Part shown: piece after piece, positions 42,808 to 46,399 of the stretch | Layout of the letters: the number at the start of each line of letters is the position of its first letter | Numbering within the stretch: position 1 is the stretch's first letter | Assembly: GCF_003350005.1 (NCBI RefSeq) | Contig: NZ_QLKS01000001.1 | Coordinates: forward strand, 415,946 to 479,945 | Direction: 5' to 3' | Length of the DNA stretch: 64,000 bases | Source of the DNA: Psychrobacter proteolyticus | GTDB lineage: Bacteria; Pseudomonadota; Gammaproteobacteria; Pseudomonadales; Moraxellaceae | Translations under genes and position numbers: made by a program | Notes under the pieces: generated by a model | Seen by the model: the letters and a program-made list of their open reading frames with translations, nothing else | Databases searched by the model: none | What the model was told of the DNA's origin: nothing

Positions 42808-43166
42808 GTCTAATTTTCAGGGGCTACAGCGTTTTTACATCTCATTGACCAATCAAACTATAATTAAAAAGCACCTGTTGTTTGTAGAGGTAGAAGACGA
42901 CTACCCCTTCATATAGTCAGCCATTCAAGCCCTAACTTCTAAGATTGGCTACATGCCTGAGAACCTGCAATCGAAGGATACAAGGTACACAGATCAAGGC
43001 ATTCCTACCTTCATACAAGCAAAAAGCAATGGAGGTATCGATTTTCTGAAAACACCTCCGGCATGGTTATAGTCTATTTCGCTCTGCTAATGATAGGAGA
43101 GCTATTATTTGATAACTCTACATGGGTAAAAGCAACCCACATAGGGGGTTTGCTACATGCTGCTTA
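42808..43166. other. Region between tRNA-Gly and the sugar dehydrogenase
   Basis: No gene is firmly supported. A 39-codon plus-strand frame (42953-43072; it begins MPENLQSKD and ends KTPPAWL) continues upstream in the same frame across a TAG at 42914, so it may be a remnant of a longer gene that I do not recognise. GGAGGT (43031-43036) and ACCTCC (43054-43059) form a weak hairpin that might end the minus-strand dehydrogenase transcript. Space behind a tRNA gene is a common landing site for mobile DNA, but no attachment repeat of the tRNA 3' end is seen. Confidence 0.4.
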
Positions 43167-44462
43167 TCAATTTGGGGTCACCCGCCAAATGGTATTAGAC
43201 AGATCATCGGCAACGATGAGTGCCCCTTTTGGATCCACTGTCACGCCTACTGGTCGACCAAAGGTCTTACCATTTTCGCCCTGGAATCCAGTGACAAAGT
43301 TAATTGGGTCTCCGGCTGGCTTGCCGTTGCTGAAAGGGACAAACACTACGTCGTAGCCCGCTGGGTCTGAGCGGTTCCAGCTGCCATGCTCACCGATGAA
43401 TGCGCCTTCGCTGAACTTGCTGCCCATGGTTGTCGTTGAGAACGCTATACCTAAAGGAGCTTTGTGCGACCCAAGGCTGTAGTCTGGAGCAATCGCGGCG
43501 GCTACCATATCAGGTTGCTCTGGCTTGACCCGCGGATCAACATTTTGTCCCCAGTAGCTGTAAGGCCAACCATAAAACTTACCCTCTTGAACTGAGGTCA
43601 AGTAATCAGGTACCAATCGTGGACCGAGCTCATCACGTTCGTTGATCACGGCCCATAACTGGTTAGTACCAGGCAGGATAGCTAACGCCGTTGGATTACG
43701 CAGACCGGTTGCATAAGGTCGGTGAGCACCGCTTTTGGCATCGATTTCCCAGACCATGGCACGATCCGCCTCTACATCCAGTCCGTTTTCAGTAATATTG
43801 CTGTTGGAACCAATGCCCACGTACAGGAATTGCCCATCCGGACTGGCCGTCATCGCCTTGGTCCAGTGATGATTGACCATGCTAGGCAGGTCGGTGAGTT
43901 TGCGTGGCGGTCCACTAGCGGTGGTCTGTCCGGGCTGATAATCGAATTGCACTACCGCATCTTGATTGGCAACGTACAGTTGGTCTTCGATTAGTGCAAG
44001 ACCATAAGGCGCATTCAGATTCTCGGCGAATACAGTACGTGTCTCGTAAGTGCCGTCGTCATTACTGTCGCGCAGAAGAGTCAGACGGTTGCCTCCTTTA
44101 ACGGATGTAGTACCTTTAGCCTTGAAATAAGTAGCAATAATGTCCTTAGGACGTAGCTTGGGTGCACCACCACCCTTGCCCTCAGCAATCAGTATGTCAC
44201 CATTGGGCAAAACTAGCGTCTGCCGTGGAATCTGAAGGTCAGTGGCAATGGCTGTGATTTTATAACCTGACGGCACTATAGGTCGGTTATCACCCCAACC
44301 TGCTGGCTCAGCTATTTTTAAAGTAGGTAATAAGCCGCGTTGAGCTTCAGGCAAGGTTGGATTAGCACCTAACTGTTCTGCATCGTTTACATTATTTTCG
44401 CCACATGCGCTTAAGAGAGCAGCGACTAAAAAAGATATCGATAAGATATTGAGTGATTTCAT
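43167..44462 (-). CDS. PQQ-type sugar dehydrogenase lipoprotein (sorbosone dehydrogenase-like)
   Basis: A 431-residue lipoprotein with a beta-propeller of the soluble quinoprotein glucose/L-sorbosone dehydrogenase family, which oxidises sugars with PQQ. The start at 44462 gives a classic lipoprotein signal (KSLNILSISFLVAALLSAC) with the acylated Cys at about residue 20, and GGAGG 6 bases upstream; the frame runs 35 codons further up but without sense. Propeller motifs include ITAIATDLQIPRQTLVLPNGDILIAEG, NAPYGLALIEDQLYVAN, TGLRNPTALAILPGTNQLWAVINERDELGP, FYGWPYSYWG and GEHGSWNRSDPAGYD. Its ATG overlaps the DUF2231 stop (ATGA). pqqA lies divergently nearby, although the rest of the PQQ operon is broken here. 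Confidence 0.9.
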   Translation of the reverse strand: MKSLNILSISFLVAALLSACGENNVNDAEQLGANPTLPEAQRGLLPTLKIAEPAGWGDNRPIVPSGYKITAIATDLQIPRQTLVLPNGDILIAEGKGGGAPKLRPKDIIATYFKAKGTTSVKGGNRLTLLRDSNDDGTYETRTVFAENLNAPYGLALIEDQLYVANQDAVVQFDYQPGQTTASGPPRKLTDLPSMVNHHWTKAMTASPDGQFLYVGIGSNSNITENGLDVEADRAMVWEIDAKSGAHRPYATGLRNPTALAILPGTNQLWAVINERDELGPRLVPDYLTSVQEGKFYGWPYSYWGQNVDPRVKPEQPDMVAAAIAPDYSLGSHKAPLGIAFSTTTMGSKFSEGAFIGEHGSWNRSDPAGYDVVFVPFSNGKPAGDPINFVTGFQGENGKTFGRPVGVTVDPKGALIVADDLSNTIWRVTPN

Positions 44463-44887
44463 CTTGCACCTCCAATGCGCCAGCTTGTGAGGCCAATCCA
44501 GGTTGCAATGCAGGCCAGAATGACAGTGATAACAGATAGAATAAGCCCGGTCGGCATACTGGCCCAAACGTCTTTTGCATGAATGAACGAATTGATTAAA
44601 CCCAGTACAAAGGTGGCCAGCAGCAACAGAAAATAGGCTACTGGTGTGCCCATGCGCTTATCGGCTCGGACTAGAGATAAAACGGAGCCTAGCAAGGCCA
44701 AACCATTAAATATCAGAGCACCTATAAGCATCCAGGAAGCGAAGTTCTTCCATTGCAGCTCGTAGCTAGACCAATAGGCATAATCGTTAAGTAAAACTCC
44801 GATAAACAGAGGCACTATCCCGGCCAAAAAAAACGCATGCAGCGGGTGTAGCGGGGTGCCGGAGTGTCGGGCAACATCACTAGTCAT
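44459..44887 (-). CDS. DUF2231-type membrane protein, partner of the sugar dehydrogenase
   Basis: A 142-residue inner-membrane protein with four helices. It starts with the HSGTPLHPLHAFFLAGIVPLFIGVLLNDYAYW segment typical of DUF2231, then three more hydrophobic segments (about 53-72, 84-102, 112-135). Genes for DUF2231 proteins often stand next to PQQ sugar dehydrogenases of the sorbosone type, so it may be the membrane partner that passes electrons to quinone or haem (inference; no haem motif is visible besides two His). AAGGAAA precedes the ATG, and the stop overlaps the dehydrogenase start. Confidence 0.83.
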   Translation of the reverse strand: MTSDVARHSGTPLHPLHAFFLAGIVPLFIGVLLNDYAYWSSYELQWKNFASWMLIGALIFNGLALLGSVLSLVRADKRMGTPVAYFLLLLATFVLGLINSFIHAKDVWASMPTGLILSVITVILACIATWIGLTSWRIGGAR

Positions 44888-45342
44888 AGCGGTTTCCTTA
44901 TTAATGGTAAACGAGGATTCGATTGACCGTACTGATTGTACCGGCCCGAACTACGCATGATGGAATTCAATTTCTACGAAATGAAAACATGGCTTGAAAC
45001 ATACCAAAGCCAAAAGAATTGTTCAATCCTTTTTTAGTTATTTAATGAACATAAGCTGGCTTTTATTTCTTTAATAAGTACTAGCCATAGTCTTTCCTAA
45101 CTCACAAAACCTGAAGTCCAACAATTAGCATGCTCCATCAATAATCTTCAAATACTCACTTCACAATAAGTGATTACATAAATCAACATAAGTATGTTTT
45201 ATTATTATCGCCAGGTGGCGTAATTAAAATTTACCAAGTTAACATCTAACAAATTGACAGCGGAGGGCAGATTGTAATAGCATGAGGCATTCCCTTTGTT
45301 CATCTTGCCTATCAACCAGTAACATCATTCAGGAGCAATCTC
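44888..45342. other. Divergent control region between the dehydrogenase pair and pqqA
   Basis: No gene is seen. The region is AT-rich. CGCCA-GG-TGGCG at 45209-45220 is a short perfect palindrome and a possible operator. TTGACA at 45254 is the best -35 for pqqA, but the -10 (TAATAG or TAGCAT near 45275-45283) is poor. AGGAG stands 7 bases before the pqqA ATG. Confidence 0.5.
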
Positions 45343-45417
45343 ATGCAGTGGACCAAACCAGCTTTTCAAGATATCCGTATTGGTTTCGAAGTTACTATGT
45401 ATTTCGAAGCCCGTTAA
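45343..45417 (+). CDS. pqqA: PqqA, precursor peptide of pyrroloquinoline quinone
   Basis: An intact gene for a 24-residue peptide that begins MQWTKPAF and ends [12 protein letters not shown]. It is a near-perfect match to PqqA, the ribosomally made peptide whose Glu and Tyr are cross-linked by PqqE and turned into PQQ. Here they are Glu16 and Tyr20 in the invariant E-V-T-M-Y spacing. An AGGAG ribosome site precedes the ATG, and a terminator follows 27 bp after the stop, as expected for the abundant short transcript. The next sequence is a wrecked pqqB. pqqC, pqqD and pqqE are not in the window. The peptide may be a relic or may serve PQQ genes elsewhere in the genome. Confidence 0.95.
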
Positions 45418-45443
45418 AATTTACTAAACTTACATCCATTAAA

Positions 45444-45472
45444 AAAACCCTAGATCACTAGGGCTTTTTTTT
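45444..45472 (+). terminator. Terminator/attenuator between pqqA and the pqqB remnant
   Basis: CCCTAG (45448-45453) pairs with CTAGGG (45458-45463) around ATCA, with flanking A and T runs, then eight T. In other bacteria a leaky hairpin here makes pqqA far more abundant than pqqB. Confidence 0.85.
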
Positions 45473-45480
45473 GGAAATAC

Positions 45481-46182
45481 TGATTTATTTTTACTTATGC
45501 TTTAGATTCTGCTGCTGATATTCTTTTCCGACCCAGAGTTGCAATTGCCATAACTATTATGGTGTTCGGCTAGGAGCCATACAATAAAAGGCCTGCATTT
45601 AATCTTCATTATCCATATCAGAAAATACCATAGATTGGATTTCATTCAATACATTAGTTGACATTAGTCAGTAATTATTCGGATTTAAGTCTTTGTAGCC
45701 AGCGCATCGATTGAGAAATACCGGCATCACCAATGTGGTCGTGATAGACAGTCAGCTTGACCATGCAACAGGGCTATTAACCCTGCGTGAAGGTTGTCCA
45801 ATTCTTGTTTGGCACACTAACATGGTCTATCAAGATCTAACGACAAGACTCCTTTTATTAACATGTTTAAACACTAGCACGACGATTTGCAATGCCGTCG
45901 AATTGGTCCAAAAAAAGCTTTTAAGATTGAAGAGTTTAACAATTTAAAATTGATGCCTCTGGTGATTAGAGACTATGCATCACCCTACTCTGCTCACCAT
46001 AATGATCCATATAATGGATGTTTATATCGCTAAAGAGCACAATACATTGCAAAGCCTATTAGCCAAGTATGTCAATTACCTCAGCCAAAGATTCAATAGA
46101 TAGCTTTATAAAGCACGCTAATTCACTTAGAATTTCTTTACGAAGATGAAGCTATATCACGCGCTTTGTACTTGATATGATA
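45481..46182 (+). pseudogene. pqqB: pqqB pseudogene (multiple nonsense codons and frameshifts)
   Basis: The remains of pqqB are readable in frame from about 45525. CNCHNYYGVRLGAIQ is the Cys-rich start region. SISENTIDW and [20 protein letters not shown] follow, then [18 protein letters not shown], the metal-site region of PqqB. Stops stand at 45585, 45600, 45672 and 45696; most replace Gln codons by a C-to-T change. A one-base loss near 45846-45850 shifts the frame; it then continues with FINMFKH-stop-HDDLQ (stop at 45875, a former Trp), [22 protein letters not shown] and a stop at 46031, with traces to about 46180 (EDEAISR). The GSAAGGG region (about 45505-45528) is in yet another frame. 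PqqB is an MBL-fold hydroxylase of PQQ synthesis. No pqqC-E follow. Confidence 0.88.
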
Positions 46183-46399
46183 AATCAGTCCTTTGTTTTG
46201 TGGATTCTATCCATTTGGCTTCTGGTATTTTTTGATTTAATTGATGACAAGTCGTAATTGATATTAGAAGAGTACAGAGTACTATTAAAGTTGACTATCA
46301 CCACAGGTCATTCTAATTAATGACATAGGTTGCGCAATATTTATATCGTTAGTATCATTTCAGTTTTGAAATGACTCAATTACAATTAGGAAAAACCTT
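46183..46399. other. Relic region between the pqqB remnant and DUF1244
   Basis: AT-rich sequence with no reading frame I recognise. If the pqqB tail or parts of pqqC-E ever stood here, they are no longer legible to me. Confidence 0.4.

Follow-up and report, generated by a model that had tools for sequence, protein, structure and literature searches.

An intact pqqA gene stands at this locus beside the broken 5' half of a pqqB gene. The window, by which we mean the whole 64-kb stretch of DNA that was analysed, corresponds to C1:415946-479945 of the P. proteolyticus genome (G000). The features below are given in window coordinates.

43167..44462, minus strand: GSDH-like (glucose/sorbosone dehydrogenase) gene, a putative PQQ user (PF07995, 41.9 bits)
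44459..44887, minus strand: gene for a DUF2231 membrane protein, paired with the GSDH-like gene (PF09990, 37.9 bits); adjoins GSDH in relatives
45254..45283, plus strand: putative promoter, TTGACA-18-TAGCAT (consensus scan, 10/12 matches)
45331-45335, plus strand: ribosome-binding site AGGAG, 7 bases before the pqqA ATG (sequence)
45343..45417, plus strand: stand-alone pqqA, 24 aa (PF08042, 41.9 bits; TIGR02107, 45.2 bits)
45448..45472, plus strand: hairpin and T run resembling an intrinsic terminator (hairpin 45448-45463, T run to 45472)
about 45487-46017, plus strand: remnant of the 5' half of pqqB, lacking the start codon, with frameshifts and several stops
42837..46277, no strand: segment holding GSDH, DUF2231, pqqA and the pqqB remnant, missing at this site in relatives (flank alignments, 7 loci; gene content)

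An intact pqqA next to a degraded pqqB

The pqqA reading frame is undamaged and runs for 24 codons to a TAA stop. In a whole-genome search, it matched PF08042 with an E-value of 5.4e-10, well over the cut-off of 21.1 bits, while none of the 14 control genomes gave a match to this family; the TIGR02107 score likewise exceeded its cut-off of 20. A comparison of the peptide with the PDB returned no match at E 1. The radical-SAM enzyme PqqE, together with the chaperone PqqD, acts on PqqA as its substrate. The translated peptide carries Glu16 and Tyr20 with three residues between them (E16-V-T-M-Y20), and these we take to be the two residues that become cross-linked. Joining of a Glu and a Tyr of PqqA by PqqE is described in PMC9851590.

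We also analyzed the signals flanking the gene. The consensus scan that gave the putative promoter found 6 sites in the pqqA region, compared to 7.0 in shuffled sequences, and it is conservation across copies alone that argues for the TTGACA element, which does not vary among the 14 stand-alone and operon rows that were aligned. The hairpin downstream of the stop codon folded at -11.4 kcal/mol (z -3.4); taken alone, the terminator pattern scan was weak (2 sites in the region vs. 0.9 ± 0.9 in shuffles). A similar hairpin lies between pqqA and pqqB of the intact operon, and the structure is therefore not special to the stand-alone gene. Reading frame, family matches and folded hairpin thus agree with what a sequence-only reading of this DNA had described, namely, an intact 24-codon pqqA with the E-V-T-M-Y motif, an AGGAG ribosome site and a terminator.

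The same reading held that pqqB is destroyed and that pqqC, pqqD and pqqE are missing locally, and both statements were borne out. The pqqB remnant reached only 86.8 bits against TIGR02108, under the cut-off and across 4 stops. Since matches of this sub-cut-off kind also occurred in 6/14 control genomes, its identity rests on DNA alignment rather than on that score: window positions 45238-46017 aligned with the intact operon from upstream of pqqA into pqqB at 74% identity (587 of 789; blastn). Within the 64-kb window, there was no match at E 1e-8 to pqqC, pqqD, pqqE or the dipeptidase gene of the operon.

A complete pqq operon elsewhere in the genome

A second pqqA gene, at C1:82910-82966, heads a complete pqqABCDE operon (C1 about 79649-82969; locus L003) on the same contig, 378 kb away. 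All four maturation genes scored over their NCBIfam cut-offs (pqqB 414 bits, pqqC 408, pqqD 133 and pqqE 599), and three further radical-SAM matches in the genome all fell under the PqqE cut-off. Because a complete pqqABCDE is present in the same genome, the window pqqA is a duplicate. As an extra intact pqqA outside the operon, accompanied by one complete set elsewhere, it has the arrangement of an orphan pqqA. A second PQQ set elsewhere was among the explanations that the sequence-only reading had offered, with the proviso that such a set, if it had a pqqA of its own, would make the window copy an ordinary duplicate; just such a set is found.

The two PqqA peptides are identical, with 6 nucleotide differences between their genes, and the two loci share the TTGACA element and the similar hairpin after pqqA. 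The operon, however, is complete and is followed by an M19 dipeptidase gene (L003:4598-5653; G000 C1 about 78597-79652), whereas the window copy lacks everything beyond the 5' half of pqqB. PF01011 exceeded its cut-off at one genome site, a membrane-bound dehydrogenase of the glucose/quinate/shikimate type (TIGR03074, 1034 bits) and a likely PQQ user. This organism very probably both makes and uses PQQ, as judged from its gene content.

The genome gave no PqqF match over cut-off; there were two weak matches at C1:300-302 kb, and weak matches of the same kind were also seen in 9/14 control genomes. An M19 dipeptidase match follows pqqE in 42/42 operon loci of the genus, and we would guess that this enzyme may play a part in PqqA processing. 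The intact operon adjoins nirD/nirB (L003:9086-12160) in this genome only, nirD being found in 1/42 operon loci, some of them shortened by contig ends; the location of the operon thus appears to vary across the genus.

Distribution of the stand-alone copy in Psychrobacter

Among 105 Psychrobacter genomes, PqqA was found in 42, exactly those in which pqqB scored over cut-off. Six genomes (G000, G058, G063, G065, G069 and G099) carry a second pqqA, always in addition to a full operon elsewhere, leaving 36 of the 42 pqq-bearing genomes without a stand-alone copy; these second-copy counts are lower bounds, as draft assemblies may hide further copies. The resulting 48 pqqA sites fell into two kinds, 42 lying beside pqqB, pqqC, pqqD, pqqE and dipeptidase matches and 6 beside a pqqB remnant with no other operon gene. 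One of the 42 operons, in an 84%-complete genome (G048), has split reading frames in pqqB, pqqD and pqqE. In the tree, a branch with support of 100 separated the six stand-alone copies from all operon copies. Across the order, a sample of 390 genomes contained 89 with pqqA, and 11 of these (P. proteolyticus included) had two or three pqqA matches.

The six pqqB remnants share their damage. In all of them, the start codon is ATT instead of ATG and one base is deleted at pqqB position 370, and each has at least one in-frame stop; they differ from one another by up to 18% (76 of 424). Since the loss of the start and the one-base deletion are common to 6/6 loci, the break in pqqB is older than the split of the six copies.

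Probable selection on the stand-alone pqqA

The stand-alone pqqA was intact in 6/6 genomes and thus does not show the disabled coding sequence of a pseudogene. Among the six genomes, 7 of 72 columns varied in pqqA, compared to 90 of 337 gap-free columns in the remnant (Fisher p 0.0013), and the sole changed residue was Val17/Ile17, both of which are common in operon copies. When change was simulated at the remnant rate, a mean of 11.9 residues were altered, and the observed number, 1, or fewer was reached in 0/200000 runs. A rate-free test gave a probability of 0.0003-0.0015 that, given 7 changes, one or none would alter the protein. These tests treat columns as independent, let variable columns stand in for changes on the tree and draw on six rows and 72 coding bases.

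The tests were also run without G069, because in this genome the stretch holding pqqA and the ribosome site matches operon-type copies almost exactly. Its stand-alone pqqA is 1 base from its own operon copy, and the match to operon-type copies, ribosome site included, extends over about 100 bases, with flanks that differ (L045 vs. L046 and L077), a pattern that suggests gene conversion. The remaining five differ from their own operon copies by 5-7 bases, which argues against recent conversion. Without G069, the Fisher p was 0.0012 and the simulation gave a mean of 9.8 with a value of 8.5e-05, but the rate-free test weakened to a borderline 0.02-0.05. That pqqA has changed less than the remnant beside it speaks against neutral drift, and these results, from a small sample, point to purifying selection on the stand-alone PqqA. 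The label of an ordinary duplicate therefore holds in that the gene is a second copy of an operon gene and fails in that pqqA alone has apparently been kept by selection.

Neighbouring genes and origin of the remnant

The GSDH-like and DUF2231 genes form a pair that faces the opposite way to pqqA. From its N-terminus, the GSDH-like protein would be a lipoprotein. Against the PDB, it gave weak partial matches to 2g8s and to the PQQ sugar dehydrogenase 6jt5, with E-values similar to those for TRIM-type NHL repeats, and no NCBIfam model scored over cut-off. GSDH was present at 83% identity or more in 9/105 genomes, not counting another 18 rows that matched partially at 25-31%. The stand-alone pqqA lies next to a GSDH-like gene in 4/6 genomes; an exclusive link between the two was considered and is weakened by G063 and G099, where the orphan is retained although GSDH is absent. 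One genome (G088) has the order IPDC-GSDH-DUF2231 without pqqA. Outside Psychrobacter, pqqA matched over its full length in none of 13 loci (L127-L139, 6 kb on each side); those in L127, L131 and L132 were weak and partial and were disregarded. The GSDH-DUF2231 pair itself (43167-44887) is also conserved at loci from Pseudomonas, Oxalicibacterium and Azospirillum.

In 7/7 compared loci, the segment 42837-46277 is absent between the IPDC-type gene and DUF1244. Six of these have 109-135 bp at the junction, three of the six with another insert of ~1.8 kb just to the right, and the seventh (L087) has ~2.4 kb of other DNA at the site. Matches to GSDH, DUF2231, pqqA or pqqB were found at 0/38 other DUF1244 loci, which were fetched from the 45 DUF1244 sites found and some of which were shortened by contig ends. 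The segment may have been inserted here or lost in relatives.

Three genomes bear on the source of the remnant. In G096 (L055), GSDH, DUF2231 and pqqABCDE stand in one row, with the same gene order and orientation left of pqqA as in the window but with full-length pqqB to pqqE, which the window lacks. In G103, the GSDH-DUF2231 pair lies about 4.7 kb from the full operon. In G068, the first 77 bp of the operon contig recur at either end of the contig whose start carries DUF2231-GSDH (L080, L124 and L098), and the far-end flank of the latter contig is 94-95% identical to the operon locus of G070; only one right-hand continuation was found. The 77-bp overlaps are consistent with G068 having two full operons, in which case the 4.5-kb pqq operon would be collapsed from two copies in the assembly. 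Together, these three genomes favour, without proving, a former full operon beside GSDH-DUF2231 that was reduced to pqqA. The tree, whose drawing is arbitrarily rooted at G096, places the stand-alone copies beside the operon copies of G068 and G070 (support 72-81). The upstream region of the stand-alone copies resembles that of G068, while the pqqA region resembles G083, G023 and G069, and the history of the source operon lineage looks mosaic.

Discussion

We consider it probable (roughly 0.78) that the locus is what remains of a second pqq operon and that its orphan pqqA supplies extra precursor in trans to the enzymes of the intact operon. Such an operon would once have lain beside the GSDH-like/DUF2231 pair and would have lost pqqC, pqqD, pqqE and half of pqqB, with the rest of pqqB broken. 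What would have survived is pqqA alone, a gene that is complete in itself and carries an upstream region, a ribosome site and a terminator of its own. Since a hairpin separates pqqA from pqqB in the intact operon as well, pqqA was perhaps already a partly separate transcription unit, for which the loss of distal genes would cost little. The orphan and the intact operon encode one and the same peptide; most likely, therefore, the orphan is translated and its product passes in trans to the PqqD and PqqE of the operon, where the extra peptide would raise the supply of PQQ precursor.

That the orphan now has no function, being just the part of a decaying duplicate that damage has not yet reached, we regard as unlikely. 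Its position in a degrading operon remnant, the 36 of 42 pqq-bearing genomes without such a copy and the weaker selection test without G069 would all suit this explanation, yet pqqA is intact in 6/6 genomes while the adjacent remnant drifted, and its amino-acid changes are fewer than expected under neutrality. Very unlikely, in our view, is the further proposal that selection cut the duplicate operon down to its substrate gene since precursor supply, rather than the enzymes, limits PQQ, with separate regulation of the orphan and perhaps a peptide role outside the common PQQ pool as well.

We rate as highly improbable a use of the orphan PqqA other than for the common PQQ pool, whether as a separately regulated supply for GSDH or in a role of the peptide itself. 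Its own upstream region and terminator, the GSDH-like neighbour in 4/6 genomes and the lanthanide response of pqqA2/pqqA3 reported for M. extorquens (PMC11317620) could be read in this way, but in this genome the peptide is identical to that of the operon, GSDH is missing from 2/6 genomes that keep the orphan and the TTGACA element is common to the operon copies. The other use of the peptide raised by the sequence-only reading is neither needed nor supported. Its further suggestion of a very recent loss, which would leave the strain PQQ-negative, is refuted: the start loss and one-base deletion in pqqB are common to six genomes whose remnants are up to 18% apart, a complete operon lies elsewhere in the genome and nothing in the whole-genome search supported a PQQ-negative strain.

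A pqqA gene that stands alone can function in trans. Free-standing copies of this kind are termed orphan pqqA in PMC11317620. Methylophilaceae are described as having 3-12 pqqA genes, typically alongside a single set of the remaining pqq genes (PMC4109929), and a methylotroph with five pqqA genes, three of them located separately, is reported in PMC9851590. According to Methylovorus work cited in PMC11317620, PqqA supply limits PQQ synthesis. In Methylorubrum extorquens, a pqqA mutant still makes PQQ, for which pqqA homologues are suggested as the reason (PMC6520949), and the orphans pqqA2 and pqqA3 are up-regulated with one lanthanide source compared to another, with a part in lanthanide uptake suggested (PMC11317620). 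The window copy resembles the methylotroph orphans in being an extra pqqA away from the main maturation genes, with a peptide presumed to feed the same pathway, and by analogy it most likely also provides extra precursor for a single pathway. Unlike them, it belongs to an operon remnant in which pqqB is broken, and the PQQ enzyme indicated by the only PF01011 match here is of the glucose/quinate/shikimate type, not a methanol dehydrogenase. In some of the methylotrophs, there is in addition a second pqqDE or pqqADE set.

A search for PQQ and pqqA in Psychrobacter found no reports in the literature covered. Extra pqqA copies are already known; what this locus adds is a remnant that reveals a likely path to the orphan state. 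The locus also calls for caution in annotation, as a 24-codon gene can look orphaned in 64 kb of sequence even though the full pathway is encoded elsewhere in the genome. The six genomes provide a natural example of an operon duplicate decaying to the gene for its substrate peptide, and decay to pqqA fits the idea that PqqA supply can merit keeping alone.
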